Below, one piece after another: positions 6,578 to 41,412 of a DNA stretch of 64,000 bases. Made by a program: the position numbers and the translations under genes. Source of the stretch: Fibrobacteria bacterium (lineage in GTDB: Bacteria; Fibrobacterota; Fibrobacteria; UBA11236); NCBI GenBank assembly GCA_025360005.1, contig JANYDA010000059.1:1-64000 (forward strand), given 5' to 3'. The notes under the pieces are model-generated. The model was not told where the DNA came from. It saw nothing but the letters and a program-made list of their open reading frames with translations, and did not search any database. How positions within the stretch are numbered: the stretch's first letter is position 1; each line of letters starts with the position of its first letter.

Positions 6578-7051
6578 TCAGGGAACTGCGCGGCCTTGAA
6601 GCCCGAATTCCCGCATGGCCGGGATGAAGTTCCGGTTCTCATGCCCGGCCCGGCTCAGCTTCACCAAAGCGAAGCGCTGCAAGGGGCGTAAGGCGGACCA
6701 GGCTTTGAGGGGCAGATCCAGTTTGACACTGCGGGCTTGTTCCAGAACCTGGGCCGGTATTTCGCCGGGGTCCTCCCAAACCGGATCCGGAAGTTCCGCC
6801 AAGAGGGAAGGGCGCGATCCGGTGATGCTTTCGACCACGCGCGCGAGCTCCTCCGCATACGCGCGGATATCCGCTTCCCCGGCGAAAGGGGCTTGCACCA
6901 GCCGCAGCCGTTGCGCTTGATCCAGCTTGGACCATTCGTTCAACTTCAATTTCACGCCGCTTACGTCCAGGCGCAGGCGCACGGCCATGGGGATGCAGCG
7001 CAGGGAATCCACGAAGTCGGCTTCAAAGCCGAAAAAGGCGGCATCGTTCAT
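6578..7051 (-). CDS. Nitrate reductase-associated protein (PF09655-like)
   Basis: This 157-aa protein ([23 protein letters not shown]... [22 protein letters not shown]) matches the small conserved nitrate-reductase-associated family known mainly from cyanobacterial and other nitrate assimilation loci. The family has no defined biochemistry; an assembly or stabilising role for the reductase is presumed. It has two internally similar halves around [17 protein letters not shown] and [18 protein letters not shown]. There is no signal peptide. The ATG at 7051 overlaps the stop of the nitrate reductase gene (ATGA), so the two are translationally coupled. It is the last gene of the leftward nitrate operon. 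Confidence 0.85.
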
Positions 7052-9291
7052 GCGTCCGCGTCTTTCTCCACGCGCACGGCGCAATGCTTGTAGGAGGGTT
7101 GCCGCGAATGGGTGTCGAAGGCCGGGAAGGTGAGGCGGTTGACTTCCACGTCGTGCATGGGCATGAAGAGCTGGCCGGGCTGGACCGTGGAGGCCACCGC
7201 CGCGCGCGCGCGCGCCTGGCCGCGCAGGGATTTCACGATCACCCAATCGCCCGAGGCTATCTTGAGGTGAGAGGCGTCGTCCGGATGGATCTCCACGTAG
7301 GAGTCCGCGGCATAGAGCTTGCGCAGCACGGCGGATTTGCCGGTGCGCGTATTGGTATGCCATTGGGCCGAGGAGCTGCGCCCGGTGAGCAGGGCGAAGG
7401 GAAACTCCGGGGTTACCGGTTCCGGAATGGGTTGGGGCGGTCCGAATTGGAATTTGGCCTTGCCGTCCGGATGGTAGAAGCGGCCGTCCGCGAACAGACG
7501 GCGTTCCTTTTCGATGCCCGCGTGGGCGGGGATGGATCCAGTCGCGGCGCCCGCTGCTTCAGCGGCCGAATAAGGCCATTGGATCCCGCCCTCCTCGTCG
7601 ATCATCTTATAGTCGCGGATGCCGGAGAAATCGCAGGGGCGGCCCACGCTGAGCTTGGACATCACCTGGAAGGTCTGTTCGGGCGTGTCCATGTCCTTAA
7701 ACATGGCATCGCAACCCCAGTACTTGGCGATGAGCTTGAAGATGTAGAAGTCCGATAGCGCTTGGCCGGGTGCGGGAGAAACTTTCTTGAATAGCCCCAT
7801 GCGGCGTTCGGAGTTGATGACCACGCCTTCCTTTTCGCCCCAGCATGCGGAAGGCAGCACCAGATGGGCCAGGCGCGCGGTATCGGTATCATGGTACATG
7901 TCCTGCACCACCAGCAGATCCAGGTTCTTGGCCGCGCGCCGGAATTCTTCCTGATCGACCCAGGAATGGGCGGGGTTGGTGGCGATGATCCAGAGCGCCT
8001 TGATGCGGCCCTCTTTGACGCCGGTGAGGATTTGATCGTAGGCCAGGCCGGGTTTCTGCTGAATGATGTCGGTGTCGATGCCGAGAATGTCCGCCACTTC
8101 CCGCCGATGCGCGGCGTCCTGGAAATTGCGGCCTCCGGGCAGCCCGGAGGTATTGCTGAACAGGCGCGAGCCCATGGCGTTGACCTGGCCGGTGATGGAG
8201 TTGGCGCCCGTGCCGGGCCTGCCGATATTGCCCGTCATGAGCGCCAGGTTGATGATGGCCTGGGCCGTGCGCACGCCTTCATGGCTCTGGTTCACGCCCA
8301 TGGTCCACCACAGGGAGACGCGTTTGCCGGGACGGATGGCGCGCGCGAATTCCAGCAGGCGCGCTTCGCCCAGCCCGGTGATCTTGCCTACCGCGGCGGG
8401 GTGGTAAGTTTGCACATGCCGGGCGAATTCCCGGAAGCCGGTGGTGTTGGCGTCGATGTAGGCCTGATCGATCCAGCCTTCGCGGATGAGGACATGCGCC
8501 AGCCCGTAGAGCAGGGGCAAATCGGTTTTGGGCAGCAGGGGATAATGCCGGGTGGCCGCCAGCGCCGTCTCCGTCTGGCGCGGATCGACCACGATGATCT
8601 CCGGCTTGCGGGGGTTCATCATCACGCGCTCCCACATGATGGGATGGGCGATGCATGGGTTGGCGCCGAAGAAGACCAGCACGTCCGACTCTTCATAGTC
8701 CTTATAGGTAAAGGGGGGCGCGTCGAATCCGAAGGATTGCTTATAGGCTACGTGCGAGGTGGCCATGCATTGCCGCGTGTTGGCGTCCCCGTGCAACAGG
8801 CCCATGCCGAACTTGGTCAGGATCCCGAGCAGGAACAATTCCTCCATCGGGATCTGGCCCGTGCTCAGGAACGCCACGGACTCCTTGCCATGGCGGGCCA
8901 TGGTGGCCTTGATCTTGTCCGTGAATAGGTGCAGGGCCTGGTCCCACTCCACGGGCGCCAGCTTTCCGTCCTCCCCGCGGATCATGGGAGCGACGGCGCG
9001 GTTGTCCGCCTTGAGCGGGGTCAATGCCTCCCAGCCCTTGGGGCAGGCCATCCCCAGGTTGACGGGGTATTCCGGATCGGGCGTGAGGTTGACGGCCTTG
9101 CCGTCCTTCATGTGGATCTTGAGGCCGCAGCCGGTGGAGCAGAAGCCGCACACCATGGAGGTGGTGGAATCCGGCTGCAGGCGATCGGGAGTCTGCCCCA
9201 AGCCGAAGCGCCCCGGCGTCAGGACCATCTCATGGGTGAGGCGGCCGTGGCGTTGGCGCATGAAGACGGCGAACTTGTCTTTCAAATCCAT
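7048..9291 (-). CDS. nasA: Assimilatory nitrate reductase, molybdopterin catalytic subunit
   Basis: This 747-aa enzyme reduces nitrate to nitrite. It carries an N-terminal [4Fe-4S] site (C48, C51, C55, C83; CGFCSTGCG and GMACPKGW) and the probable molybdenum ligand C175 in [18 protein letters not shown], as in NasA/NarB/NapA-type bis-MGD enzymes. A molydopterin-dinucleotide-binding domain closes the protein ([20 protein letters not shown]). There is no twin-arginine signal, so it is cytoplasmic. It also lacks the C-terminal BFD-like [2Fe-2S] extension of Klebsiella NasA. I chose the ATG at 9291 over a further upstream in-frame start because it is preceded by GGAGGG and begins the conserved domain. 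The gene sits 117 bp after the DmsBC fusion gene, which probably supplies its electrons. Confidence 0.92.
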
Positions 9292-9408
9292 GATCGGGAA
9301 TTCCCTCCGCTGACCGGAGTATAGTTTACTTGCCCCGAGCCCGCCCTGCAAGCCATGCGCGGACGCCGCGAAACGCTAAGACGCCAGGCGTATTAAGCGC
9401 CGGGCCCA

Positions 9409-11214
9409 TTATGCGCCGGGCATGCGGGGCGGCACGCAAGCGGCGAAGAACAGGTAACGTTCCAGGCACTCCCCCGCCAATAGCAAGGCCAGGGCCGCCG
9501 CGGCGAACGCCACGTCCGCCCATCCGGTGCCGGCATAGCCGCGGTAAAGCCACAACACCGGCAACAAGAATCCGCCCGCCAGTCCGGCATTGAATCGCCA
9601 GATGTTCTGGAAGCGCAGGTCTCCGCGCAGGAGCAGAGCCGCCTTCTTGAGCGGGTTGGCCTCCTGATCGTCGAGATGGCGGTGGATGCCCGCTTCGCTG
9701 CCAAGCTTGGCGATGACCAGGAGCGGCAGCGCCAGGGTGAGGCCCAGCGCCAGATGATGCAGGGTGCCGATAAGGCCGATAAGGGGCGCGGTCCCGGAAG
9801 CGTCGAAGCCGGCGACCAAAAGCAGCAGGCCCGCCAAGCCGGTGAGCGCGCCGGTGAGGAAGAATTTCCTGGAGGTGAGGTTGGTGGCCCACATGGCCCG
9901 GGGCGTATCCCGGTAGACCATGGCCGAACAATGCACGGCGAGCACGGCGACGAGCGCCAGGGTGACGCGCAACCAGGGAGCGGATGCGAGCGCGGCCCAG
10001 CGGGCGGGATGCCAATGCGCCATGGACGAGGCGGGGTCGAGGCGCGGAGCCAGTGCGGTAATGGCGGTGGCCGCGGCCAGGATGGTGGCCACCGCCCCCA
10101 GGATCCCGAAGGCGACGATTTCCCGGCTTAGCCAGGAACGGCGGAAGCCCAGCACGGCGCGGAAGGCATAGAGGGGACGGCCCAGATGGGTGATGCTGAT
10201 GGCGATGGCCAGCAGGGTCAGGGCCGCCGCCAACGCGTGGCCCACGGCCTGGAAGAGCGGATCCATGGGCAGCCACCCCAAAAGCGATCCCGCTTCCAGC
10301 GCCGCTATGAAGCCGGCGGCCATTTGCGAAAGCGTGAGCATGAAGATGAGGGGATAATGCGCTTTTTCCTTTTTCACCTTGTACGCGTCGGCCGCTTCCA
10401 TGCCATCCGGGAATTTGCGTACCGTACGATAACGCGTGGTGGGCATGGTATAGGCGGGATCCGGCGCGCCGGGCAGGGCCGCATAGGCGGCGTAGTTCTG
10501 GCGCACCTCGGCCAAATCGACAAGCGTGATGCGGATGGCCTTGGTAGGGCAGGACTGCACGCAGGCGGGAGCCTCGCCCGCTTCCAGGCGGCCCACGCAC
10601 ATATCGCATTTGCGCACGATGCCTTTTCCATGATGGTACTGCGGCACGTCGTAAGGGCATTTCAGGATGCAATACTCGCAGCCGATGCACTGATCGTCCA
10701 GATGCTTGACGATGCCGGTGACCGCATCCTTCTCATAGGCTTTCACCGGGCAGCCGTGCGAGCACGCGGGTTCCAGGCAATGCTGGCAGGCGGTGGTGAC
10801 GGTCTGTTGCAGCGGTTTGCCGATGACGTTGTGGATGAGGCCCACCGAGCGCCAGGTTTCGTCCTCGTCCAGTCCGTTGAGGTTGTGGCAAGCGGTGACG
10901 CAGGCCTTGCAGCCGGTGCAGCGATCCAGATCCACTTCGAAGGCATATTGCTGGCCGGGCCTGGGTTTTTCCAGGGGCAGCAGATCCTTGTAATGGCTTT
11001 GCAGGCGCGGCGTCCCGCCCGGCGCGCCGCCCGGATCGAGCATGCGATCATGCGCGCTGGAGAACCGCTCCACGGCGGTCAGGTCCTGTTGTTCTTGGAG
11101 GTAGGCTCCGATGAGCGATGGCCCGTCGCCCAGGAAGCGGGCAAGCGAGGGCTGGACGGATTTTTGCGGCAGGGGCGCGGAGGGCGAAAGCGGATCGGGT
11201 TTCCTCTCAATCAT
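9409..11214 (-). CDS. DmsB-DmsC fusion: iron-sulfur electron-transfer and membrane-anchor protein
   Basis: This 601-aa protein joins two subunits that are usually separate. After a loose N-terminal 90 residues, residues about 92-260 hold four ferredoxin-type [4Fe-4S] sites: CTGCKACVTACHN (C99, C102, C105, C109), CQHCLEPACSHGCP, CIGCEYCILKCPYD and CDMCVGRLEAGEAPACVQSCP. From about 285 to the end there are eight hydrophobic segments with the DmsC pattern (SQMAAGFIAALEAGSLLG; ITHLGRPLYAFRA). DmsC-type anchors oxidise menaquinol, so this protein most likely passes quinol electrons to the neighbouring nitrate reductase. It starts 1 nt after the stop of the diflavin reductase gene. With no exported partner nearby, the Fe-S domain is expected to face the cytoplasm. 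Confidence 0.88.
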   Translation of the reverse strand: MIERKPDPLSPSAPLPQKSVQPSLARFLGDGPSLIGAYLQEQQDLTAVERFSSAHDRMLDPGGAPGGTPRLQSHYKDLLPLEKPRPGQQYAFEVDLDRCTGCKACVTACHNLNGLDEDETWRSVGLIHNVIGKPLQQTVTTACQHCLEPACSHGCPVKAYEKDAVTGIVKHLDDQCIGCEYCILKCPYDVPQYHHGKGIVRKCDMCVGRLEAGEAPACVQSCPTKAIRITLVDLAEVRQNYAAYAALPGAPDPAYTMPTTRYRTVRKFPDGMEAADAYKVKKEKAHYPLIFMLTLSQMAAGFIAALEAGSLLGWLPMDPLFQAVGHALAAALTLLAIAISITHLGRPLYAFRAVLGFRRSWLSREIVAFGILGAVATILAAATAITALAPRLDPASSMAHWHPARWAALASAPWLRVTLALVAVLAVHCSAMVYRDTPRAMWATNLTSRKFFLTGALTGLAGLLLLVAGFDASGTAPLIGLIGTLHHLALGLTLALPLLVIAKLGSEAGIHRHLDDQEANPLKKAALLLRGDLRFQNIWRFNAGLAGGFLLPVLWLYRGYAGTGWADVAFAAAALALLLAGECLERYLFFAACVPPRMPGA

Positions 11215-11215
11215 C

Positions 11216-13108
11216 TCAGTATACGTCCCGCTGGTAGCGCTTCTCGTCCTTCATGCGGGCCAGGTAGGCGCGCGCCGATTCCGCATCGCCGCCCGTTTCC
11301 TTGGCGATCACCCGTTGCAAAGCCTCGTCCACATCCTTGGCCATGCGCTTGGCGTCCCCGCAAACGTAGAAATGCGCGCCTTCTTCCAGCCAGGCGAAGA
11401 GTTCTTTCGATCGCTCCAGCATGCGGGTCTGCACGTAGACCTTTTCCTCCTGATCGCGCGAGAAGGCCAGGTCCATGTTGGTGAGGAACCCGGACGCGTG
11501 CATGGCCGCGAGCTCTTCGCTGTAGAGGAAATCGTATTGGCGGCGCTGATCGCCGAAGAAGAGCCAGTTCCTTCCCGTATCACCCAGGTTACGGCGCTCC
11601 TGCAGGAAGGCGCGGAAAGGGGCGATGCCGGTGCCGGGCCCCACCATGATGACGGGCTTCCCCGCTACCGCGGGCAGGCCGAAATGCGCGGCCGGCTGCA
11701 CGAATACGGGCAGGGTCATGCCCAAGGGCACGCGCTCCGCCAGGAAGGTGGAGGCCACGCCGCGGCGCAGGCGGCCGCCGGCCTGGTAACGGACCACTCC
11801 CACCGTCAAATGCACTTCGCCGGGATTCTCCTTGGGCGAACTGGAAATCGAATACAGGCGCGGGGCTATCTTGCCCAGGGTGGCAGCCAGGTGCTGGGCG
11901 TCCAGACGGGTATGCGGGAAATCCCGCAGCACATCCAGCAGATCGCGCTCCGCCAGATAGGCCTTGGCCTTGGCGCCGTCGGCGGCGAGCAGATCCGCCA
12001 GGCGGCGGCGGTCCCCCAGGTTTTTGGTCGTCTCCAGCAAGACCTGCAGCAGGCGTTCGGAACCGCGGCGCAGGTCCAGTTTATTGATGAGGGCGGTGCG
12101 CAATGCCATTTCATCGCCGCCGTCCAGGGCAACCTTTTCGCTGCCCAGGCAATTGAGAGTCAGGATGATGCGATCGACCAGCTCATAGCAATTGCGCGGG
12201 ACGATGCCCAGGGCGTCGCCTACGCGGTATTCCAGCCCGCTGCCCAACAGGGAGATGCTGATATGCCGCGTATCCTTGGCGGATCCCTTCGCGTTGAGGG
12301 GATGGTTTTCCAGCAAGGCGGCCTGGAACGGATTTTTGCGCGAATAGACGGAAGGGGCTTTCGCCGCGGCCGCGCTGCCGGAAAGCGCAGGGACGGGATG
12401 GCCGCCGTGCTGGGCGGCCCCGTTGATCGAGGTCGGCAGATGCGCCGCTTTCGCCGGAGCGGGACCGGTATCGGCCGCATCCGAAACCAAGGTGCCCAGC
12501 GCCGCGATGACGCGTTCCATCCAGGCCTCGGATTTGGCCTCATAATCGGTGTCGCATTCGCACAGGGGCAGAAGCCGTTTTGCCCCCAGATCGGCAAAGC
12601 GCCCGTCCAGGTTCTTGCCCGCTTGGCAGAAACGGGTGTAATTGTGATCGCCCAGCCCCAATACGGCGAAACTGACATGCTCCAGGGCGGGAGCCTTGCC
12701 CCCTATCAGCCAATCCCAGAAGGCCACGGCATTGTCGGGCATGTCCCCGTCGCCCCAGGTGCTGCAAAGCATCAGCACCTTGGTTTCGGAAGCCCAGGCG
12801 ATATCCTTGAAGGTCTCCATGCCCAAGACGCGTGGCCGGATGCGCACGGCCCCGCCGGCGAAGGCGAAGGCTTTGATCTTTTCCGCCAAGCCATGCGACA
12901 GGCCTTCGGCGGTGCCTGACTGGGAACCGTAAAGCACCAGCAGGGGTATCTCCGGTGTTACGGAGGGCGGCGCTGCCGGGGCGGCGGCGTGGCCCCCGGC
13001 CAGGCCCGCCACCGCGGTGTTGGTGAGGCCGGCCAGGAAGCCGTTGAGCCACATCCTCTGTTCCACGTTGAAAGGAGCCGATTCGGGGAGGACGGGTGCA
13101 TTGTTCAT
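11216..13108 (-). CDS. CysJ-like diflavin (FMN/FAD) NADPH reductase
   Basis: This 630-aa protein has the full sulfite-reductase flavoprotein layout. A short N-terminal helix motif (FNVEQRMWLNGFLAGL, residues 13-28) comes first, then a flavodoxin domain (LVLYGSQSGTAEGL; STWGDGDMPDNA; LGLGDHNYTRFC), a connecting/FAD domain (RLYSISSSP; GVASTFLAERV) and an NADPH-binding domain (GPGTGIAPFRAFLQERR; YVCGDAKRMAKDVDEAL; ending RYQRDVY). It takes electrons from NADPH and passes them one at a time. In this operon the natural acceptor is the siroheme nitrite reductase encoded just upstream, though sulfite reduction cannot be excluded. Its ATG overlaps the nirA stop codon (TAATG), so the two are translationally coupled. 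Confidence 0.9.
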   Translation of the reverse strand: MNNAPVLPESAPFNVEQRMWLNGFLAGLTNTAVAGLAGGHAAAPAAPPSVTPEIPLLVLYGSQSGTAEGLSHGLAEKIKAFAFAGGAVRIRPRVLGMETFKDIAWASETKVLMLCSTWGDGDMPDNAVAFWDWLIGGKAPALEHVSFAVLGLGDHNYTRFCQAGKNLDGRFADLGAKRLLPLCECDTDYEAKSEAWMERVIAALGTLVSDAADTGPAPAKAAHLPTSINGAAQHGGHPVPALSGSAAAAKAPSVYSRKNPFQAALLENHPLNAKGSAKDTRHISISLLGSGLEYRVGDALGIVPRNCYELVDRIILTLNCLGSEKVALDGGDEMALRTALINKLDLRRGSERLLQVLLETTKNLGDRRRLADLLAADGAKAKAYLAERDLLDVLRDFPHTRLDAQHLAATLGKIAPRLYSISSSPKENPGEVHLTVGVVRYQAGGRLRRGVASTFLAERVPLGMTLPVFVQPAAHFGLPAVAGKPVIMVGPGTGIAPFRAFLQERRNLGDTGRNWLFFGDQRRQYDFLYSEELAAMHASGFLTNMDLAFSRDQEEKVYVQTRMLERSKELFAWLEEGAHFYVCGDAKRMAKDVDEALQRVIAKETGGDAESARAYLARMKDEKRYQRDVY

Positions 13109-15099
13109 TAACGCTTCTCCGTAATTGCGGCCATCGCGATGCCGTTTCTCTCGCTGCGTGATGGGTGGCCGGGGGCTTGCGAGCCCGCGGACGCGACGCC
13201 TGGCGATCCGCCCCCGGCGGTTTCCGCGCCCGCTGGTTGGATGCTTGCGGTTTGGGTGCCGGCCGTTGCGGGGGCCGCGAACAGGGACGTGATTTCCGCA
13301 TCGGTCAGGCGCGCGGTGAAGGCCGTGAAGGATTCGCCCGCCCTGCGCTTGCCCAGGTAAACGGAAAGGATGCGTTCGATTTCCGCGGGCACCTCCGGGA
13401 TGGGGACGGAACGGCGCGCGGGAGCGGCCATGCGGCCTTCGCGCCCGTAGCCGCCTCCGATGAAAACGTGGAAGCCCGGTCCCTTATAGGCCTCCGTCTC
13501 GACGCCGGCGGCGATGAGGCCGATGTCTCCTATGAAATGCTGGGCGCAGGAATGCGTGCAGCCGGTGAGATGGATGTTGACCGGCGCGTCCAAGCTGATC
13601 TTGTCGCGCCGGCCGCGCAAGTAGGTCGTGATGGCCAGCGCCGTGGCCTTGGTGGGCCCCATGCCGAACTTGCAACCCTCCGCTCCCGTGCAGGCCACCA
13701 GGCCGGCTTGGATGGGATCGGGTTCATGGGTCAACCCCAAATCGCCCAAGGCGCGCAACGCCTCGCCCAGATGCGCTTCCGGAATATCGGAGATGAGCAG
13801 GTTCTGCCACACGGTAAGCCGCAGGGTTCCCGATCCGAAAAGGGTGGACAAGGCGGCCAGGCCCCGCAACTGTTCGACGGAAAGCCGTCCCACAGGCACG
13901 TCCACGCCCAGGTAGCAGAGTCCGGGCTGCCGTTGGGCGTGGATGCCTAGATGCCCGCCTTTGTCCACCGGAGCCGCGCAACGGCATTCCGCTTCCGCCA
14001 GGCGGCGGAGCGGGAAGGGCAGCAGCTTCTGGGTTTCGCCCAGGAATTTTTCAAAGCCCCAGGAATCCAGCACGTACTTTAGGCGCGCGCGCTTGCGGTT
14101 GCCGCGATCGCCGTTCATCACGTATACGCGGATCATGGCCGCGATGACGGGGACGCATTCTTCCGGCCGCAACAGCAGGCCGGTGTCGCGCGCCAGATCC
14201 CCATGGCCGGTGATGCCGCCCAGGGCCACGCGGAAGTACACGCCTTCCGGAACGCCGCGTCCCGCATCCACCTTCACCGCCTTGAGGCCGATATCGTTGG
14301 TGTCTTCCAGCGAGGAGATGGAATTGCCGCCATCGAAGGCAACGTTGAACTTGCGCGGCAGGCCGTACAAGGTCCTATCGTGCAGGATGTGGTGATGCAA
14401 TTGGCGGCACAGGGGCAGCACGTCGTAGAATTCGTCCGCGTCGATGCCGCAAGTGGGATTGCCGGTGACGTTGCGGATGTTGTCCGCGCCGGAACCGCGC
14501 GGGATGATGCCCGCCTCGTGCAGGTCCATCAGCAAAGAGGCCATGTGCCGGGCGGGGATTTCCCGGATCTGGAGATTGGCGCGCGTGGTGATGTCCACGT
14601 AGCCGCCGCCGTAGGCTTCCGCCGCCGCCGCCACCGCTTCGGCCTGGTAGGCGCGCAAGAGGCCGGCGGGAAAGCGCAGGCGCGACATCATGGATTCCTG
14701 GGCCGGGGACACGTTCCACAGGCCGTGGGTCTTGAAGCGGAAAATGTCTTCGCCTTCCGGCAGTTTGTCCAGCGCGGAGAGCTCGGCGATGCGCGGCCAC
14801 GCGTCGAGCGGATCCGCGTCGAACTTGATCTTCTCTTCTTTGGAGAGGCGTTTGCCCGCGGCCAACCAGGACAGTTGCGCCTGCTTGCCCGGAGGCGGTT
14901 GCGAAATCTCCGGGAAGGCTTCGCTTGGGGCCGCGCCGGCTGCGGGCCCCGTAACGGCGGGCATGGGCTGCGCGACCAAACCCCGCAGGAATCCTTCCAG
15001 GTATTCCTTCTGGGTGGGTGTGAATGGGTTCCCGAGCGCGTCTGTGGGTATCAACTTATCTCCCGGCGGTTTTTTGCCGCCGGCTAGGTCCTGTGCCAT
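13108..15099 (-). CDS. nirA: Siroheme nitrite reductase, NirA family, with N-terminal extension
   Basis: This 663-aa protein reduces nitrite to ammonium with six electrons. Two siroheme-Fe4S4 half domains are present, and the cluster cysteines are C470, C476, C514 and C518 (CTGAEGC ... LTGCTHSCAQHFIGDIGL). The length exceeds plain NirA because of an N-terminal extension that includes FTPTQKEYLEGFLRGL (residues 26-41), like the helix found in CysJ proteins, and a low-complexity Ala/Gly/Ser tail of about 70 residues. I chose the ATG at 15099 rather than 15186 because it follows GGAGGAGAGG and because the predicted sigma-54 transcription start (about 15176) lies downstream of 15186. It is the first gene of the leftward operon. 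Sulfite reductase is the alternative, but the context favours nitrite. Confidence 0.9.
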   Translation of the reverse strand: MAQDLAGGKKPPGDKLIPTDALGNPFTPTQKEYLEGFLRGLVAQPMPAVTGPAAGAAPSEAFPEISQPPPGKQAQLSWLAAGKRLSKEEKIKFDADPLDAWPRIAELSALDKLPEGEDIFRFKTHGLWNVSPAQESMMSRLRFPAGLLRAYQAEAVAAAAEAYGGGYVDITTRANLQIREIPARHMASLLMDLHEAGIIPRGSGADNIRNVTGNPTCGIDADEFYDVLPLCRQLHHHILHDRTLYGLPRKFNVAFDGGNSISSLEDTNDIGLKAVKVDAGRGVPEGVYFRVALGGITGHGDLARDTGLLLRPEECVPVIAAMIRVYVMNGDRGNRKRARLKYVLDSWGFEKFLGETQKLLPFPLRRLAEAECRCAAPVDKGGHLGIHAQRQPGLCYLGVDVPVGRLSVEQLRGLAALSTLFGSGTLRLTVWQNLLISDIPEAHLGEALRALGDLGLTHEPDPIQAGLVACTGAEGCKFGMGPTKATALAITTYLRGRRDKISLDAPVNIHLTGCTHSCAQHFIGDIGLIAAGVETEAYKGPGFHVFIGGGYGREGRMAAPARRSVPIPEVPAEIERILSVYLGKRRAGESFTAFTARLTDAEITSLFAAPATAGTQTASIQPAGAETAGGGSPGVASAGSQAPGHPSRSERNGIAMAAITEKR

Positions 15100-15186
15100 A
15101 GCCTCTCCTCCTGTTGCCAGGGGAATTCGCAATGGCCAAAGGTTCGGACGGACCGGAGACAGTTGGCTTGTGAGCTTCATCGCCAC

Positions 15187-15203
15187 TGCAAAGGCCGTAC
15201 CAT
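15187..15203 (-). promoter_or_regulatory. Sigma-54 (-24/-12) promoter of the nirA operon
   Basis: Read on the minus strand, the site is ATGGTACGGCCTTTGCA, against consensus TTGGCACG-N4-TTGCW. The GG (15201-15200) and GC (15189-15188) pairs are exactly 12 bp apart in register. The start would be near 15176, giving a leader of about 77 nt before the 15099 ATG. Confidence 0.8.
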
Positions 15204-15475
15204 GCCCGATTTCATGGGTTTACCTTAAGACATTGAGGAAATTCAGTCACGAGCGCGGTTAGATATCCGTCTGTGTTCCCATTAGTCATATTCTGTCACA
15301 TGATGGGAATTACAAAAAGGGCCACTCTTTGCGATGTTGTCGATCCTCGCAAGCGAGCGCCAGGAGGCCAGAATGGGCCGATGCCTTGGACCCGATCTTC
15401 CGCCTATATAGAAGCGAGCCCAACGGCTCTCGATCGCGTTACATAATGTTCGCGCTTGTCTACTACTGTCAATCA
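15204..15475. promoter_or_regulatory. Divergent control region between nirA and narK
   Basis: No gene fits here. It lies between two opposed sigma-54 promoters, so enhancer sites for an NtrC-type activator are expected. A 7-bp inverted repeat TTCCCAT (15276-15282) / ATGGGAA (15303-15309) sits about 90 bp upstream of the nirA promoter. A shorter palindrome, CTCGC-AA-GCGAG, lies at 15346-15357. No copy of the enteric NtrC consensus (GCAC-N7-GTGC type) was found. A second, weaker GG-N10-GC match (15319-15332) also exists on the plus strand. Confidence 0.45.
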
Positions 15476-15492
15476 TTGGCGCGTGCTTTGCT
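15476..15492 (+). promoter_or_regulatory. Sigma-54 (-24/-12) promoter of narK
   Basis: The site TTGGCGCGTGCTTTGCT differs from TTGGCACG-N4-TTGCT at one conserved position. GG is at 15478-15479 and GC at 15490-15491, the exact 12-bp register. The start would be near 15503, leaving about 19 nt before the ATG at 15522, with AGGGAG in between. Confidence 0.85.
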
Positions 15493-15521
15493 TTTATGAT
15501 CTCCTCAGGGAGATTCCGTTT

Positions 15522-16736
15522 ATGAAATTCAAAGACTTCGCCAAAGCCGGCCATGCGCCGACGCTTTTTTCCGCCTTCCTTTATTTCGACATGAGCTTCA
15601 TGGTTTGGGTGCTGCTGGGACCCTTGGGCGTGCACATAGCCAAGGATCTGGGGCTCACGCCGTCGCAGAAGGGAATGATGGTGGCCGTCCCCGTGCTGTC
15701 GGGCGCCATCATGCGCGTATTCATGGGGCTGTTGGTGGATCGCATCGGCGCCAAGAAGGCCGGCTTGATAGGACAGGTGATGGTATTGGCCGCTTTGCTG
15801 TACGCGTGGATGTTCGGGCTGCATTCCTTGCACGCCGTTTACCTGCTGGGCATTTGCCTGGGAGTTGCCGGGGCCTCCTTCGCGGTGGCTTTGCCTCTGG
15901 CTTCGCGCTGGTATCCTCCCGAAGCCCAGGGACTGGCGCTGGGCATCGCGGGCGCGGGCAATTCCGGCACCGTCTTTTCCGCTTTGTTCGCTCCCGTTCT
16001 CGCCAATCATTTCGGATGGACCAATGTGTTCGGACTGGTGCTGATCCCGCTTTCCATCACCATGCTCATCTACGCCATCCTGGCCAAGGATGCGCCGGGC
16101 ACGCCCCCGCCGCAAAAGTTTTCCCGTTATTTCAAGGTCCTTCAGGAACGGGACGCTTGGTGGTTCATGCTTTTCTACCTGGTCACCTTCGGAGGTTTCG
16201 TAGGGCTGGCATCCAGCCTGGTCATTTATTTCAACAGCCAATTCGGATTGTCCCCTTCCGTGGCCGGCTACCTGACGGCGGGAATCGTGTTCTGCGGTTC
16301 CATGTTCCGACCCATAGGCGGTACGGTGGCGGACAAGGTGGGCGGCGTGCGCGCGTTGCAGACCATGTACATGGTGGTGGTCCTGGCCATGCTGGGCGTG
16401 GCGCTGCTGCCAACCTCGCTGGCGCTGTCGCTCGCTTTCTTCGCGGTAGGCATGATGGCGATGGGCATGGGCAACGGCGCCGTGTTCCAACTCCTGCCGC
16501 AGCGCTTCAAGCGCGAGATCGGCACCCTGACCGGATTGGTGGGCATGGCGGGCGGAGTGGGCGGATTCTATCTCGCATCCTCGCTGGGCCTCTCCAAGCA
16601 ATGGACCGGCGACTATCGTTTGGGATTCCTGATGTACGCTTTGTTGGGCGCCTGCGCCTTCGGCATTCTTTTCAAGGTCAAGGTCCGGTGGCGCGCCACC
16701 TGGGGTTCCCCGGAAGTGGCGCAAGCGCGGGTGTAG
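15522..16736 (+). CDS. narK: Nitrate/nitrite transporter, MFS NNP family
   Basis: This 404-aa protein has about 12 membrane segments. It carries the NNP family nitrate-signature region GIAGAGNSGTVFSALFAP (in the fifth transmembrane region) and the MFS loop motif GLLVDRIGAKKAG after helix 2. It imports nitrate, or exchanges nitrate for nitrite, across the inner membrane. I chose the ATG at 15522 because AGGGAG lies 8 nt upstream and because an in-frame start at 15456 would be upstream of the sigma-54 transcription start. The NasS-like gene follows after 15 bp, so they share a transcript. The assimilatory context suggests import; the NarK, NasA and NrtP types cannot be separated by eye. Confidence 0.9.
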   Translation: MKFKDFAKAGHAPTLFSAFLYFDMSFMVWVLLGPLGVHIAKDLGLTPSQKGMMVAVPVLSGAIMRVFMGLLVDRIGAKKAGLIGQVMVLAALLYAWMFGLHSLHAVYLLGICLGVAGASFAVALPLASRWYPPEAQGLALGIAGAGNSGTVFSALFAPVLANHFGWTNVFGLVLIPLSITMLIYAILAKDAPGTPPPQKFSRYFKVLQERDAWWFMLFYLVTFGGFVGLASSLVIYFNSQFGLSPSVAGYLTAGIVFCGSMFRPIGGTVADKVGGVRALQTMYMVVVLAMLGVALLPTSLALSLAFFAVGMMAMGMGNGAVFQLLPQRFKREIGTLTGLVGMAGGVGGFYLASSLGLSKQWTGDYRLGFLMYALLGACAFGILFKVKVRWRATWGSPEVAQARV

Positions 16737-16751
16737 TCCGTCAGCGGCGGT

Positions 16752-17813
16752 ATGGCCATGCCTGCGAGCGCGGTTAGGATCGGCTTCGTGCCGTTGGTGG
16801 ATTGCGCCCTATTGGCGGTGGCCCAGGAGAAGGGCTTCTTCCTCGCCCACTCCCTGGACGTGGAATTGCGCAAGGCCCAGTCTTGGGGCCAGGTGCAGGA
16901 GAAGCTGCTGGCGCGCGAGTGGGACGCCGCCCATTGCCTCATCACCATGCCGCTCCAGTTCGCCTTGGGCGATCCCTCGCGCGAACCTCCCGTCAGTTAT
17001 GCCTTCACCTTGAGCCGCAACGGAAACGGCATCATCCTGGCCAACGCGCCCTGGAACGAGGGTGTCCGCGATCCGGAAGGCCTGTCCGTTTGGTTGGCGC
17101 AAAGGCCCGACAAGACCTTGCGGCTGGGCGTGGTCTATCCGCGCGGCACGCAGGAGTATTTCCTCCGATCCTGGTTGACCCGCGGCGGGCTGACGTTGGG
17201 CAAGCGCATCAGCCTCACCATAATACCACCACAGGAAATGGTCGGCCGCCTGCGCAAGGGCGAGATAGACGGCTTCTGCGCGGGGGAACCCTGGAGCCGG
17301 CGCGCTTCCGCATCCAAGCTGGGCCGGCTGGTGGCGGAAAGCGGGGGGCTGTTCCCGGGCCTGGGTGAAAAGGTGCTGGGCGTGCGTACGGACTGGCATC
17401 GCGGCCATTCCCTGGAGCATTCGCGCCTGATCCGGGCGCTTTCGCAAGCCTCCCTCTGGATGTCCGATCCGGAAAACCTGGCCGAAGCCGTGGAGATAAT
17501 CGCTTCCAAGCATTACGTGAACACCCCCAAGACCGTGGTCGAGGCCGCGTTGCGGGATACGGCCGATCGCAATCTTCCCAAGGCGGGCGCGGATCCGGAT
17601 GCTTCCCGCGCGCATGCCAACCGCCTCAACCTGCCTTCCCAGGCCCACGCGAAATGGTACCTGGATCAAATGCGCCTCTGGGGTCACGTAGATGTTACCC
17701 TGGCTGCCGGCCTCGATCTTTCCGCCATCTGCATGGAGGGCTTCCACAACTCGGTCACCGCCACGTTGTCAGCTTTTGTCGGGCAAAAAATCACATATGG
17801 TGCCATAACATGA
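16752..17813 (+). CDS. nasS: NrtA/CmpA-like protein without signal peptide (NasS-like nitrate/nitrite sensor)
   Basis: This 353-aa protein belongs to the NrtA/CmpA substrate-binding family (RIGFVPLVDCALLAVAQEKGFF; LAREWDAAHCLITMPLQFALG; IPPQEMVGRLRKGEIDGFCAGEPW), but the domain begins at residue 8 with no export signal. Cytosolic NrtA-like proteins of this shape are the NasS sensors, which bind nitrate or nitrite and release the ANTAR antiterminator NasT so that nitrate genes are transcribed. No NasT gene follows; the next element is the structured nrtA leader. It could instead be a degenerate binding protein, but it is full length and keeps the ligand-pocket motifs. Start ATG at 16752. It is cotranscribed with narK and, as a sensor, would act in the cytoplasm. 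Confidence 0.75.
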   Translation: MAMPASAVRIGFVPLVDCALLAVAQEKGFFLAHSLDVELRKAQSWGQVQEKLLAREWDAAHCLITMPLQFALGDPSREPPVSYAFTLSRNGNGIILANAPWNEGVRDPEGLSVWLAQRPDKTLRLGVVYPRGTQEYFLRSWLTRGGLTLGKRISLTIIPPQEMVGRLRKGEIDGFCAGEPWSRRASASKLGRLVAESGGLFPGLGEKVLGVRTDWHRGHSLEHSRLIRALSQASLWMSDPENLAEAVEIIASKHYVNTPKTVVEAALRDTADRNLPKAGADPDASRAHANRLNLPSQAHAKWYLDQMRLWGHVDVTLAAGLDLSAICMEGFHNSVTATLSAFVGQKITYGAIT

Positions 17814-17875
17814 TTGGCCGGCCGGGATACCTTGACATTCTCCCTTGAATTCCCAAACCCCCGCGCAAACATCCC
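17814..17875 (+). promoter_or_regulatory. Short region upstream of the nrtA promoter
   Basis: This is the gap between nasS and the sigma-54 promoter. It includes TTGACA (17832-17837) but no matching -10 at the right spacing. Activator sites for the nrtA promoter would have to lie here or inside the end of nasS. Confidence 0.3.
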
Positions 17876-17893
17876 TTGGTACGCGCTTTGCTT
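17876..17893 (+). promoter_or_regulatory. Sigma-54 (-24/-12) promoter of nrtABD
   Basis: The site TTGGTACGCGCTTTGCTT matches TTGGCACG-N4-TTGCT except T for C at one place. GG is at 17878-17879 and GC at 17890-17891, in exact register. The start would be near 17903. The TGGTACG core is shared with the nirA promoter. Confidence 0.88.
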
Positions 17894-17902
17894 TTTGAAA
17901 CC

Positions 17903-18397
17903 CCGTCCGTGTTAAACGCCAACTGATTGTTAGCGGCAGTGGTTTCAACGGACCAGGATGACCGAGACCTTTAGGTCCCGGCTCTGCCGCCGACGATAAG
18001 CATGGGCGCATAGGCGCCCGGGTAGCCGTATGGACGGCGCCTCAGCTTACTCCGGTCCGCCCGGGCTTTTGGACATACGAACCGCGGCCCTTAACTGGAG
18101 GCCGGAGGAGTATGCCCAATGAAGTCGGTTTCTAGGATTGGTATTAGTGGCGCAGGCGAAAGCCGGAGGAGACGCACGGAGTGCGCTTCCCGATATCACA
18201 CCGCTCCCCAGCGGACTCCTGAGGCCGCCCTACCGTCCAACCGCGGAAAGGCATTCCCGGCCGCAGGAGGGGATGCTCCCCATCCCCATCCCCCGGTAGG
18301 ATCATGCCTGGCATGTCCCCTCCTACCGGGGGACCGCACCTCTTTCAATGCCCGCGCGCCAATGCGGGAGAACCCGAATACAATAAGGAGCTTCACG
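17903..18397 (+). ncRNA. Long structured 5' leader of nrtA (candidate cis-regulatory RNA)
   Basis: The leader is about 495 nt from the predicted start to the nrtA ATG. Visible helices are GTCCGT/ACGGAC (17905-17910/17948-17953) enclosing CGCCAAC/GTTAGCG (17917-17923/17929-17935), CCGAGACC/GGTCCCGG (17962-17969/17974-17981), and TAAGC/GCTTA (17997-18001/18045-18049) enclosing two perfect hairpins (GGGCGC-ATAG-GCGCCC at 18004-18019 and GCCGT-ATGG-ACGGC at 18025-18038). CGGACC (17949-17954) can pair instead with GGTCCG (18054-18059), so there are two exclusive folds. Further hairpins follow, ending in the one at 18290-18332. I recognise no known riboswitch. Nitrate leaders in other bacteria are controlled by antitermination, which makes that a reasonable guess. 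GCCGGAGGAG occurs twice (near 18101 and 18160). Confidence 0.55.
18290..18332 (+). promoter_or_regulatory. Large hairpin before nrtA, possible attenuator
   Basis: A perfect 12-bp stem CCCCCGGTAGGA (18290-18301) pairs with TCCTACCGGGGG (18321-18332), with a second small hairpin CATGCC-T-GGCATG in the loop. The following bases (ACCGCACCTCTTTC) have no true T-run, so it is not a standard intrinsic terminator. It ends 65 nt before the nrtA start. Confidence 0.6.
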
Positions 18398-19813
18398 ATG
18401 TCGGCATCCATACTTTCGTTTTTTTCCACGCCCCGGGGAATCGGTTCGCGACTTGGAGACTGGCCCCAAAGGCTAAGGGCCGCGCGCCTGCGGGCCCGGT
18501 TGGCCGCAATCGCCTTGCGTACGGAAGTAACTTCGGCGTTACGCTCAGCGACGACGGTCGGCGCGGTGATGGCCGTTGTCTGCGCGCCGGCAAGCGCCGA
18601 TACGGCCAAGCCGGAAACGACCAAAGTCAAGCTTGGTTATATAGCCCTGAACGATTTCGCGCCGCTGGCCATCGCCAAGGAGAAAGGCCTGTTCGCCAAG
18701 TACGGCATGCCGGACGTGGAAGTCTTGAAGCAGGCTTCCTGGGGCGCGGTGCGGGACAACCTGGAGTTGGGATCCGGCAACGGCGGCATCGACGGCGCGC
18801 ATATCCTCACGCCCATGCCCTATGCGCTGACCCTGGGGTTGGTGACCAAGGGCAACAAACCTTGCCCCATGTATATCCTGGCCCGCCTCAACCTCAACAA
18901 CCAGGCCATCTCCATCGCCTCCAAGTACATCGACGACGGGATCAACAAGGATGCCTCCCTGTTCCGGCCCTGGATCGACGCTGCCAAGAAAAAAGGCGCC
19001 AAGCCGCTCACCTTCGCCATGACCTTCCCCACCGGAACGCATAATTATTGGATCCGCTATTGGCTTTCCGCGGGCGGCATCGATCCGGACGTGGACGTGG
19101 CCACCATCGTGATCCCGCCGCCGCAGATGGTGGCCAACATGCGCGTGGGCAATATGGACGCCTTCTGCGTAGGCGAACCCTGGGGCCAGCAGCTCATCAA
19201 CCAGCGCATCGGCTATACGGCGGTGCAGACGCAGGATATCTGGAAGGATCATCCGGAGAAGTCCTTCGCCATGCGCAAGGACTGGGTGGACGCCCATCCC
19301 GTAGCCGCCAAGGCCCTGCTGAAGGCCGTGATGGAGGCGCAGATGTGGTGCGACAAGCCCGAGAACGCCAAGGAGCTGGCCACCATCCTCTCGCAGAAGA
19401 ATTGGATCAATTGCCAGGTGGAGGATCTGCTGCCGCGCATCCAGGGCCATACCGAGTATGGCGACGGCAAGCGCAAGCCCAAGGAAGGCGAATACATGAA
19501 GTTCTGGCGCGACCACGCCTCTTTCCCCTACAAGAGTCATGAAAAATGGTTCCTGGCGGAGACGCGCCGCTGGGGCTTTTTGCCTAACGGGGTGGACTAC
19601 GACAAGGTGGTGGGACAGGTGAACCGCGCCGACCTGTGGCGCGAGTGCGCCAAGGAGATAGGCCAGGAAGCCATGATCCCGGCGGGCGATTCGCGCGGCG
19701 TGGAAACCTTTTTCGACGGCGTCACTTTCGATCCCGCGGATCCGGAAGCGTACCTGGCCAAGCTGAAGATCAAGAACATCGACGGCAAAAAAGGGTCGAT
19801 GGCCAGGAAATGA
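18398..19813 (+). CDS. nrtA: Nitrate ABC transporter substrate-binding protein
   Basis: This 471-aa protein is the exported binding protein of an NrtABD nitrate importer. After an unusually long basic N-terminal region and a hydrophobic segment (about residues 50-66, TVGAVMAVVCAPASA), the mature domain reads KVKLGYIALNDFAPLAIAKEKGLF, AHILTPMPYALTLG, TFPTGTHNYWIRYWLSAGG and IPPPQMVANMRVGNMDAFCVGEPWG, the NrtA/CmpA family pattern. I chose the ATG at 18398 because AAGGAG lies 8 nt upstream. An in-frame ATG at 18119, with GGAGGAG 8 nt before it, would add 93 residues that do not look like protein sequence. It shares these motifs with the NasS-like protein, which suggests the two are paralogues. 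It overlaps nrtB. Confidence 0.9.
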   Translation: MSASILSFFSTPRGIGSRLGDWPQRLRAARLRARLAAIALRTEVTSALRSATTVGAVMAVVCAPASADTAKPETTKVKLGYIALNDFAPLAIAKEKGLFAKYGMPDVEVLKQASWGAVRDNLELGSGNGGIDGAHILTPMPYALTLGLVTKGNKPCPMYILARLNLNNQAISIASKYIDDGINKDASLFRPWIDAAKKKGAKPLTFAMTFPTGTHNYWIRYWLSAGGIDPDVDVATIVIPPPQMVANMRVGNMDAFCVGEPWGQQLINQRIGYTAVQTQDIWKDHPEKSFAMRKDWVDAHPVAAKALLKAVMEAQMWCDKPENAKELATILSQKNWINCQVEDLLPRIQGHTEYGDGKRKPKEGEYMKFWRDHASFPYKSHEKWFLAETRRWGFLPNGVDYDKVVGQVNRADLWRECAKEIGQEAMIPAGDSRGVETFFDGVTFDPADPEAYLAKLKIKNIDGKKGSMARK

Positions 19814-20817
19814 TCATGAAAACCGAAAAGCAGACTCCCATGGGAAAGGGTCCCGCAAGCGGGATCCCGGAAATACCGGAACCGGAAAAGGCCGGCGGCC
19901 GAGGCCACCAGGTCGTAGCGGAAAGGCCCAAGCCCATGATCACCAACCTCAAGACGGTGGAAACCAAGATGAAAGCCTCCCAGCCCGCCAAGCCTCCGGC
20001 CCAGTTGCCGCCGCCGAGCGAAGACGCGGAAAAGGCGGCCCGCATGCGCGATCGCGCCCGCACCTTCATCATGCCGGTGCTGGCCCTCGCCTTCATCGGA
20101 CTGTTCTGGGAGATCTATTCCTCCCGAACGGGCGTGGTGCTGCCCGGACCGCTCAAGACCATCCATGATTCCTGGAACCTGATCGCCCATCCGTGGTTCG
20201 ATCACGGCCCCAACGACAAGGGCCTGGGGTGGCAATTGCTTTCCTCCTTGCAGCGCGTCGCCATCGGCTATTCGCTGGCGGCCGTCGTCGGCATCTTCCT
20301 GGGGATAGTGATCGGCAAATCCGCCATGGCTTTCAAGGCCCTGGATCCCATCTTCCAGGTCCTGCGCACCATCCCGCCCCTGGCCTGGCTGCCTATATCC
20401 CTGGCCACCTTCAACCAGGCGAATCCCTCCGCCATCTTCGTCATCTTCGTCACCGCCGTCTGGCCCATCATCATCAACACCTCGGTGGGCATCATGCGCA
20501 TCCCCGCGGACTATGAGAACGTGGCGCGCGTCTACCAATTGACGGGCTCGCGCTATTTCTTCAAGGTGATGCTGCCTTCGGCCGCGCCCTACATCTTCAC
20601 CGGCCTGCGCATCTCCATCGGCATGGCCTGGCTGGCCATCGTGGCCGCGGAAATGCTGACAGGCGGCGTGGGCATCGGCTTCTTCATCTGGGATTCCTGG
20701 AACTCCTCGCGCATGAGCGACATCCTGGTCTCGGTTTGCTACGTGGGCTTGATCGGCCTCACCTTGGACCGCATCGTGGCCAAAATCGCGTCCCTCTTCG
20801 GGACGAAGGGAGAGTAA
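19810..20817 (+). CDS. nrtB: Nitrate ABC transporter permease
   Basis: This 335-aa inner-membrane protein is a BPD-type permease of the NrtB/CmpB/SsuC group. About 85 N-terminal residues are hydrophilic and proline/lysine rich and are longer than usual. Six membrane segments follow, starting near FIMPVLALAFIGLFWEIY, with the conserved cytoplasmic loop region RVYQLTGSRYFFKVMLPSAAPYIFTGLRIS (EAA loop equivalent). The first ATG overlaps the nrtA stop (ATGA at 19810); a second in-frame ATG at 19816 is equally possible. The ATPase gene follows after one base. Together with NrtA and NrtD it forms a nitrate/nitrite importer. Confidence 0.9.
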   Translation: MIMKTEKQTPMGKGPASGIPEIPEPEKAGGRGHQVVAERPKPMITNLKTVETKMKASQPAKPPAQLPPPSEDAEKAARMRDRARTFIMPVLALAFIGLFWEIYSSRTGVVLPGPLKTIHDSWNLIAHPWFDHGPNDKGLGWQLLSSLQRVAIGYSLAAVVGIFLGIVIGKSAMAFKALDPIFQVLRTIPPLAWLPISLATFNQANPSAIFVIFVTAVWPIIINTSVGIMRIPADYENVARVYQLTGSRYFFKVMLPSAAPYIFTGLRISIGMAWLAIVAAEMLTGGVGIGFFIWDSWNSSRMSDILVSVCYVGLIGLTLDRIVAKIASLFGTKGE

Positions 20818-20818
20818 C

Positions 20819-21655
20819 ATGGGCGATACCAACCTGGATCTCAACGCCGAAAGGGAAGCCCGTTTCGTGGACATCTCCGGCGTTCATAAGCTTTTCGGAT
20901 CCGGCAAGTCCCGCTACCATGCGTTGGCCGGCGTGGATTTGCGCATCGCCAAGGGCGAGTTCGTCAGCATCATCGGCCATTCCGGCTGCGGCAAATCGAC
21001 CTTGCTCAACCTGGTGGCGGGGCTCAACCTGCCCACCACCGGAACCGTGGCCGTCAACGGCAAGGAAGTGAACGCGCCCGGCCTGGACAGGGCCGTGGTC
21101 TTCCAAAGCCATTCGCTATTGCCCTGGCTCACGGTGCTGGAAAACGTACAGGTGGCCGTGGACAGCGTTTACCCGGACAGGAACAAGCAGTTCCGCCTGG
21201 AAGAGGCGCGCAAGTACGTGGAAATGGTGCACCTGGGCAAGCATGCCAACAAGAAGCCGCCGGAGCTTTCCGGCGGCATGAAGCAGCGCGTAGGCATCGC
21301 GCGCGCCTTCGCCGCCAATCCGCAGGTATTGCTTTTGGACGAGCCCTTCGGAGCGCTGGATGCGCTCACGCGCGGCAGCATGCAGGACGAATTGACTTCC
21401 ATCTGGGAAAAAAACCGCAAGACCGTCATGATGATCACGCACGACGTGGACGAGGCCGTTTTCCTTTCCGATCGCATCGTGCTCATGTCCAACGGGCCGG
21501 CGGCCGTCATAGCCAAGGTGGTGGAGGTTCCCATCCCGCGCCCGCGCACCCGCGAAGCGCTGCTGGAGGATTCCCATTACCTGGAGATCCGAAAGGAGCT
21601 GCTGCATTACCTGATCGGGGCGTCTTCCCACGGGAGCGTGTCGGCGGCGGCTTAA
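20819..21655 (+). CDS. nrtD: Nitrate ABC transporter ATP-binding protein
   Basis: This 278-aa ATPase has Walker A GHSGCGKST (about residues 53-61), the Q-loop region VVFQSHSLLPW, signature LSGGMKQRVGIARA, Walker B LLLDEPFGALD and switch histidine in ITHDVDEAV. The pattern LLPWLTVLENV is typical of the NrtD/SsuB/TauB group. It has no NrtA-like C-terminal regulatory domain, so it is NrtD-type rather than NrtC-type. A single ATPase presumably works as a homodimer. The ATG is one base after the nrtB stop. Confidence 0.92.
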   Translation: MGDTNLDLNAEREARFVDISGVHKLFGSGKSRYHALAGVDLRIAKGEFVSIIGHSGCGKSTLLNLVAGLNLPTTGTVAVNGKEVNAPGLDRAVVFQSHSLLPWLTVLENVQVAVDSVYPDRNKQFRLEEARKYVEMVHLGKHANKKPPELSGGMKQRVGIARAFAANPQVLLLDEPFGALDALTRGSMQDELTSIWEKNRKTVMMITHDVDEAVFLSDRIVLMSNGPAAVIAKVVEVPIPRPRTREALLEDSHYLEIRKELLHYLIGASSHGSVSAAA

Positions 21656-28300: not shown

Positions 28301-29653
28301 AAGCAGGGACGCTGGGAAGGTGAAATCCATTTGCGCCATTCCGGCGCCGGCAAGCCCATACCGGTATGGTGCAATACCTTCCAGTTCAGGGATCGGGGCG
28401 ACAGCGAAAGCGCCGGCCTGGCCATCGTCACCCGCAACCTGTCGCAATTGCGGGAAACGGAAGAACATTTGCGGCAGGCCCAGAAGATGGAAGCCATCGG
28501 CAAGCTGGCGGGCGGCATCGCGCATGATTTCAATAATCTTCTCACCGCCATCAATGGCTACGGCGATCTCGCCTTGGCCATGGTGGGCGAGGGGACCCTG
28601 CACGATTACCTGCGCGAAATCCGGAACGGGGGCGAGCGCGCGGCCACGCTCACGCGGCAACTGCTGGCTTATAGCCGCAAGCAGATGATGCAACCCAAGC
28701 AGGTCAACCTGAACGAAGTCATCCGGGATATCCAGAAAATCCTGCTGCGCCTCATCGGAGAACATATCGAATTGAAATCCGCATTGGCGCCGGACCTGAT
28801 CCTGGTGAAGGTCGATCCCGGCCAGGTGGGGCAGATCCTTCTCAATCTGGCGGTGAACGCGCGGGACGCGATGCCGCATGGCGGCACTCTGACCCTGGCC
28901 ACCGGGAACGTTTGGGTGGATCCTGAATACGCGGCCCAGCACCTGGATTCGCCTCCGGGGTCCTACGCCGTTCTCGAGGTGGCCGACAACGGGATTGGCA
29001 TGAGCAAGGAGGTGCTGGCGCGGGCTTTCGAGCCGTTCTTCACCACCAAGGACGTGGGCAAGGGAACCGGCCTGGGCCTCTCCAGCGTTTACGGGATCGC
29101 CAAGCAAAGCGGGGGTAGCGTTACGGTTACCAGCCAGGAAGGCGGCGGCACGCGCTTCCGCATCTTCCTGCCCGCCCTGCAGCCTGCCGCGGAGGCCGCC
29201 GATGTGCCGACCGCCGTCCCAGCCGGCGCGGCCGTTACCGCCGGCAAAGGCGAGGTCATCTTCCTGGTGGAGGATGAAAGCGCGGTCCTGGCTTTCGTAA
29301 AACGGATCCTGGAACAAAAGGGCTATGAAGTGCTGGCGGCCAAGTCCGGCGAAGAGGCCATGGAAGCCGCCCGCGCCTTCCCGCGGCCCATCGCGCTCCT
29401 GTTAACGGACATGGTAATGCCGGGCATGAACGGACGCCGCCTGGCGCAGCTGTTCGGCGAATTGAATCCGGATACCCGCATCCTGTTCATGTCCGGATAT
29501 ACCGAGGACCATACCTTGACCGGCGCCGGCGCCGGCATGGGGGACGATTTTATCCAGAAACCCTTCACGCCCGAAGGGTTGTTCGAGAAAATCCGTTTCA
29601 AGTTGGGCGGGAGCCGGGGACTGTCGGCCGAGCATGGGATCGCACGCGGATAA
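25388..29653 (+). CDS. Double hybrid sensor histidine kinase with two receiver domains
   Basis: This 1421-aa cytoplasmic protein has two complete kinase cores in one chain. In order: a PAS-like domain (about 30-165, with [13 protein letters not shown]), a GAF-like domain (about 175-335), HisKA 1 (SHELRTPL, H358), HATPase 1 ([24 protein letters not shown]), receiver 1 ([10 protein letters not shown]686 in LLSDVMMP; K738), a coiled linker, two PAS domains (about 775-890 and 905-1020), HisKA 2 ([12 protein letters not shown]1046), HATPase 2 ([27 protein letters not shown]) and receiver 2 (D1341 in [12 protein letters not shown]). No membrane segment or DNA-binding domain is present. It could pass phosphate between its own domains. 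No separate response regulator lies nearby, so its target is unknown. Confidence 0.9.
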
Positions 29654-41314: not shown

Positions 41315-41389
41315 AACCGGCTCCCTTTTCCCGTCATCCGTCCAAAACCGCGCTCTATGCGCTCCGCGCAATGCGATTAGACCAAGCCA

Positions 41390-41406: not shown

Positions 41407-41412
41407 GAAGTT

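Follow-up and report, generated by a model that had tools for sequence, protein, structure and literature searches.

The Klebsiella oxytoca nasF promoter is Ntr/sigma-54 controlled, and a regulatory leader downstream of it, where the ANTAR protein NasR brings about antitermination, gives this nitrate assimilation operon a second layer of control. In Paracoccus, Azotobacter, and Bradyrhizobium, NasS-NasT systems involve a leader RNA in nas genes (PMC3795266). Here, we analyzed a nitrate assimilation cluster in a 64-kb stretch of DNA (contig C28; the whole stretch is hereafter called the window) from a soil-type Fibrobacterota bacterium whose genome of 4.98 Mb in 65 contigs is 98% complete. In the window, a nirA operon diverges from genes for a narK-family transporter, a cytoplasmic NrtA paralogue, and the transporter NrtABC. 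The cluster resembles nasF in pathway, in the position of a putative regulatory leader downstream of the promoter, and in two-layer logic, but it has no ANTAR protein, tandem hexaloop hairpins, or terminator, its leader core bears no relation to that of nasF, and control probably acts on translation. On balance, we favor a two-layer regulon in which sigma-54 and direct-repeat enhancers, with a NifA-like protein as candidate activator, act first and a leader RNA then acts on the nirA and nrtA messages.

Sigma-54 promoters and upstream repeats

A sequence-only reading of the window had proposed sigma-54 promoters with exact GG-N10-GC spacing before nirA, narK, and nrtA, two of them with a TGGTACG core. 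Read directly, the spacing is exact at all three sites, and the core is common to nirA and nrtA (Table 1). The three sites fit TGGYRYG-N4-TTGCW (TGGYRYGNNNNTTGCW) without mismatch, a pattern with 18 exact occurrences genome-wide (control pattern, 8); 3 of the 18 fall within 2.7 kb, each upstream of a nitrate gene in the right orientation, and these are the only exact matches inside the window. As the same reading had claimed, the predicted transcription starts rule out longer open reading frames (ORFs) from GTG 15186 for nirA and from TTG 15456 for narK.

The genome encodes rpoN, as do all 61 genomes covered in the search for relatives. Seven genomes carry the cluster: the window's own (G000), G001, G002, G003, and G005 of the same genus, and G008 and G009 of a sister genus (G009 is 87% complete, which makes absences in it soft). 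A scan with a sigma-54 weight matrix, which approximates the published consensus and serves for ranking only, found sites at all promoters of the six genus or family relatives that have the cluster, and every promoter position in the seven genomes scores at least 12.8. Sites are kept despite altered gene order; in G002 the site directly precedes the NrtA-paralogue gene, and the second narK of G005 has a site of its own. In a more distant member of the same class, G012, which also has the nitrate genes, the site is good at nrtA and weak at nirA. Two of the outcomes that the sequence-only reading had named as refuting, a genome without rpoN and a loss of the sites in relatives, were thus checked, and both checks favor the sites. 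Because the sites are conserved in relatives, and the genome belongs to Fibrobacterota and encodes rpoN, we take the nirA, narK, and nrtA sites to be real; the sigma-54 reading of the nitrate genes stands, and this first layer is shown at the sequence level. Sigma-54 control of nitrate genes is in itself of an already known kind. Some of the other sites in G000 look genuine as well: near-consensus elements stand before genes that appear to encode an Hsp20-like protein, a flgB-like product, and a probable flagellar protein (L029, L035, and L037; named by eye). They hint at a wider sigma-54 regulon in this lineage that covers the usual classes of genes.

AAA+ activators and upstream sites, both typical of sigma-54 systems, were found. 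A TGTCA-N5-TGTCA direct repeat with at most one mismatch lies upstream of 15 of the 22 promoters, compared to 0.1 in shuffled sequences, and only at a spacing of 5; nirA and narK have one spacer repeat in common, so that the independent count is about 13 rather than 15. The repeats mostly lie ∼80 to 200 bp upstream, and the three occurrences of the pattern in the whole window are all at the nirA-narK and nrtA promoters. Enhancers had been predicted in the divergent nirA-narK spacer, and an enhancer-like site is indeed present there. Also in this spacer, a CTATATA block (15400-15415) is kept in five of five genus members while its surroundings are not, and it is possibly the site of another factor.

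The further proposal that sigma-54 acts here with NtrC, as in Proteobacteria, is supported for sigma-54 but not for NtrC. Like the proteobacterial regulon, this one has sigma-54 promoters at nitrogen-source genes and enhancer-like sites upstream; unlike it, the conserved upstream motif is the TGTCA direct repeat, and NtrC-type GCACC-N5-GGTGC dyads are at chance, with two seen and 2.1 expected from shuffles of the 22 upstream regions and chance-level occurrence in the window as well. An alternative would be that the sigma-54 layer alone is regulatory, with NtrC as activator, and that the leader described below is a relic in the untranslated region (UTR) or a translation enhancer. In Proteobacteria, NtrC is known to control nitrate assimilation (PMC8443478), and the genome does have receiver-type activators, of which the two that were scanned score below the ntrC cutoff. 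Given the dyad counts, the strongly conserved repeats in their place, and a 20-nt leader core that is kept across two genera while its flanks diverge, we regard this alternative as unlikely.

Of 17 strong sigma-54 activators in the genome, no more than three are clearly represented by orthologues in G008 as well as in G009. The first is a NifA-like GAF/AAA+/Fis protein (77% identity), the second is of the receiver type and has GSYTGS in its GAFTGA loop, and the third is short. In five genomes, a sigma-54-like box stands upstream of the NifA-like gene (contig C8, locus L005), and the five 150-nt upstream stretches hold 14 TGTCA/TGACA half-sites where 2.1 are expected. At the other 35 activators there are 0 or 1 in all but one case, and among the three shared activators only the NifA-like gene has these half-sites at its own promoter. 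We infer that the NifA-like protein may bind the half-sites and control its own gene, and that it is the best candidate activator for the nitrate promoters. It resembles NifA in its GAF-AAA+-Fis architecture and in having NifA as its top-scoring NCBIfam model; we use the label “NifA-like” only, because it scores under the curated TIGR01817 cutoff (475.7 versus 528.85 bits). Classical TGT-N10-ACA NifA sites are not above chance at these promoters.

Contrary to the statement that the window encodes no activator, it does encode a sigma-54 activator (Table 1). As the regulator of the nitrate genes it is a poor candidate, with no orthologue in G004, G008, or G009, and it is probably irrelevant to them. 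Its fusion of a PF09370 PEP-hydrolase-like domain to a sigma-54 activator is an unusual sensor-activator architecture.

A candidate leader RNA on nirA and nrtA messages

An element that the sequence-only reading missed emerges from alignment of the upstream regions: the 5′ leaders of nirA and nrtA have CCAAyyG...CGGUCCGyCCGrnCyUUUGG in common, as do some narK leaders of relatives. Its core 20-mer has 16 exact copies in the 61 genomes, all in the nitrate cluster of the seven carriers (reversed control pattern, 0). Every copy lies in the leader of nirA, nrtA, or a narK, downstream of the promoter and ahead of the start codon, on the same strand as the gene. A covariance model (R1) finds the same seven genomes and no others among 168 Fibrobacterota genomes; it has no match in 398 Pseudomonadota genomes, a search with no positive control that shows only that the element is not common there. 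Rfam searches with the cluster, the nrtA leader alone, and the relatives returned only chance matches and a 5S rRNA. The element appears to be a new, apparently undescribed cis-regulatory leader RNA, the presumptive second layer of the regulon.

In six nrtA leaders, 60 to 125 nt are inserted between CCAACUGA and CCGG. Like the insert in the window (Table 1), those of five relatives fold far more stably than shuffled sequences (z, −3.2 to −6.6), and their hairpins are kept via compensatory changes. These observations bear on whether the element could instead be a DNA operator, with the near-palindrome CCGGTCCGTCCGG serving a repressor that acts a short way downstream of the promoter. Its almost invariant, near-palindromic core without covariation and its position downstream of +1 would suit a repressor. 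However, the inserts part CCAACTGA from the palindrome while both halves are conserved, they are strongly folded with compensatory changes, and the element never changes strand with respect to its gene. It would be surprising for a DNA operator to accommodate structured inserts of this length, whereas a branched RNA would tolerate them, and we therefore consider an operator rather unlikely.

The leader RNA has two predicted folds. The UUGG of the core-closing helix, which pairs with CCAA, is also part of a helix around the start codon, so that the two folds would compete. In nrtA-type leaders of the genus, the second fold is UUGG-ACAUAC/GUAUG-CCCAA around the Shine-Dalgarno (SD) sequence, and at the same place the pairing is UUUUGG/CCAAAA in G008 and GGAGCA/UGCUCU in G009. 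Such start-codon pairing is better than in shuffled sequences for every nrtA-type leader and for one nirA leader (p = 0.002 to 0.028), and within the genus a predicted GCCAU/AUGGC pairing around the SD hairpin of nirA is suggestive but statistically weak. No terminator was found in the leaders, and the four terminator-like matches in the stretch are as many as shuffled sequences give on average.

Every cluster encodes a cytoplasmic, NasS-like member of the nitrate-binding family, and both NasS-NasT and NasR work on the leader RNA of nas genes in Proteobacteria (PMC3795266, PMC7496416); the leader might then be the target of an ANTAR antiterminator of the NasR/NasT kind that partners the NasS-like protein. 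The locus resembles NasS-NasT systems in that a gene for a cytoplasmic NrtA-like protein accompanies the nitrate genes and in its candidate leader RNA. In contrast to those systems, NasT is absent: no ANTAR protein was detected in Fibrobacterota genomes, although two control genomes were positive at ∼1e-19 and ∼1e-20. Neither were tandem AxxGxx hexaloop hairpins found in the leaders. Taken with the lack of a terminator, these results largely refute the ANTAR reading, which we consider very improbable. The NrtA paralogue in the window lacks a signal-peptide-like start, and its distance from a Bradyrhizobium NasS-like protein (29% identity) is similar to that from the NrtC regulatory domain (36%). 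Its role may be to sense nitrate on behalf of the leader or simply to gate the transporter.

In the two-layer regulon that we favor, sigma-54 RNA polymerase would start the nirA-cysJ-nasC, narK-(NasS-like), and nrtABC transcripts from −24/−12 promoters, with an enhancer-binding protein acting from the TGTCA-N5-TGTCA repeats, one of which would serve both divergent promoters, nirA and narK. The nirA and nrtA transcripts would then carry a common leader with a CCAA/UUGG closing helix and a CGG-UCCGy-CCG hairpin, to which nrtA adds two helical domains. The 3′ strand of the closing helix could pair instead with the start-codon sequence, and formation of the core, aided by a putative ligand or protein, would free the ribosome-binding site and so control translation. 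Transcription would report nitrogen need, and the leader would report a second, pathway-specific signal.

Several observations weigh against this reading. The only tie between the NifA-like protein and the repeats is their shared half-sites, and the NifA-like gene is also present in relatives without the nitrate cluster and is therefore not nitrate specific; none of the shared activators is restricted to cluster-bearing genomes. The leader core is so nearly invariant that it offers no covariation, and the window's own narK has no leader element. In the genus, start-codon pairing of the nirA leaders does not beat shuffles when they are cut at the ATG, and these leaders do not differ significantly in stability from shuffles (z, −0.3 to −0.8), so that the stability of nirA leaders was left out as evidence for structure.

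The nrtA start and organization of the cluster

Although the start codons of nirA and narK agree with their sigma-54 sites as had been claimed, the one assigned to nrtA, ATG 18119, is probably the start of a leader ORF. It has a good SD sequence, but a conserved second SD (AAGGAG, 18385-18390) and ATG 18398 precede the signal-peptide-like region. In G001, the ORF from the 18119-type start is out of frame with nrtA, and the same start context also precedes the second narK of G005, where the ORF stop overlaps the narK start (ATGA). Codon-position analysis of the ORF shows no clear excess of third-position substitutions. Given the conserved SD and ATG, the frame break in G001, and the separate ORF in G005, the true start of nrtA is probably 18398. 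Upstream of it, the stretch 18225-18335 contains strongly conserved CCCCAGCGGA..GAGGCCGCCC..CCGUCCAACCGCGGAAAG followed by two hairpins and may be a second structured RNA element.

The closest named records to nirA are from Fibrobacteres/Fibrobacteria metagenome assemblies (72 to 80% identity). On the plus strand, the order is narK, the cytoplasmic NrtA paralogue, nrtA, nrtB, and nrtC. In G005, the pair of narK and the NrtA paralogue is duplicated (L080:8069-13640), the second copy having its own sigma-54 site and leader RNA, and narK and nrtA of the sister genus are separated by a gene for a PP2C-phosphatase/Ser-Thr-kinase-like fusion (L083:8170-9900 and L084:12216-13904; named by eye). A little beyond the cluster, positions 25388-29653 of the window encode a hybrid histidine kinase of 1,421 amino acids that matches HisKA, HATPase, and receiver domains twice each and also has PAS domains.

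Table 1. Features of the nitrate assimilation locus, by position in the window
Feature	Positions	Strand	Remarks
Nitrate-reductase-associated protein, nirA operon	6578-7363	minus	
NasC-like molybdoenzyme, nirA operon	7048-9351	minus	
Fe-S/DmsC-like protein, nirA operon	9409-11214	minus	
CysJ-like flavoprotein, nirA operon	11216-13108	minus	
nirA, siroheme nitrite reductase	13108-15099	minus	first gene of operon
Predicted hairpin GCCAU.GC/GC.AUGGC holding nirA SD and start codon	15095-15136	minus	overlaps core 3′ strand; compensatory changes in inner SD hairpin, G001
Leader RNA core, nirA 5′ UTR, CCAACUGUCUCCGGUCCGUCCGAACCUUUGG	15136-15166	minus	
Sigma-54 promoter, nirA operon, TGGTACGGCCTTTGCA	15187-15202	minus	predicted +1 15176; kept in G001, G002, G003, G005, G008, G009
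Direct repeat AGTCA-N5-TGTCA, nirA-narK spacer	15284-15298	plus	candidate shared enhancer site; conserved in relatives
Second direct repeat TGTCT-N5-TGTCA	15457-15471	plus	close upstream of narK −24 element
Sigma-54 promoter, narK, TGGCGCGTGCTTTGCT	15477-15492	plus	predicted +1 15503
narK-family nitrate/nitrite major facilitator superfamily transporter	15522-16736	plus	
Cytoplasmic NrtA paralogue	16752-17813	plus	NasS-like or free NrtC regulatory domain
Direct repeat TGTCA-N5-TGTCG	17767-17781	plus	candidate enhancer site, ∼110 bp upstream of nrtA −24
Sigma-54 promoter, nrtABC, TGGTACGCGCTTTGCT	17877-17892	plus	predicted +1 17903
Leader RNA core 5′ strand, nrtA 5′ UTR, CCAACUGA	17919-17926	plus	
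Structured insert in nrtA leader, 125 nt	17927-18051	plus	two helical domains; z −3.8; 0/200 shuffles as stable
Leader RNA core 3′ part, nrtA 5′ UTR, CCGGUCCGCCCGGGCUUUUGG	18052-18072	plus	
Predicted hairpin UUGGaCAUAC/GUAUGcCCAA around SD of ATG 18119	18069-18118	plus	uses UUGG that pairs with 5′ CCAA
Leader ORF or N-terminal extension ahead of nrtA	18119-18397	plus	
12-bp hairpin CCCCCGGUAGGA/UCCUACCGGGGG	18290-18332	plus	compensatory change in relatives
nrtA, nitrate-binding protein, signal-peptide-like N terminus	18398-19813	plus	PDB 2g29 NrtA match, E 5e-153
nrtB	19636-20817	plus	start tentative
nrtC	20819-21655	plus	
Sigma-54 activator, PEP-hydrolase-like (PF09370) sensor domain/AAA+/Fis	41374-43422	plus	

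Implications for nitrate regulation in Fibrobacterota

What marks this regulon as a new variant is that sigma-54 control goes together with a new leader element in a NasT-free lineage. For a phylum that has received little study, the locus provides a small regulon open to testing, which comprises three sigma-54 promoters, a candidate enhancer motif that is new, and a specific protein proposed as activator. Like translational riboswitches with helices that sequester the start site, the leader has a conserved core upstream and an alternative pairing over the SD sequence or start codon; unlike them, it is a candidate without an Rfam match or core covariation. A full-text search of one collection of papers found no nitrate or nitrite riboswitch. 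That the leader is a new riboswitch class, sensing nitrate, nitrite, or another nitrogen signal and controlling nirA, narK, and nrtA translation in NasT-less Fibrobacterota, is a tentative idea that we think doubtful at present. In these organisms, a small candidate regulatory RNA apparently takes the place of the ANTAR leader systems of Proteobacteria, and if that RNA does sense nitrate or nitrite directly, it would represent a new riboswitch class.

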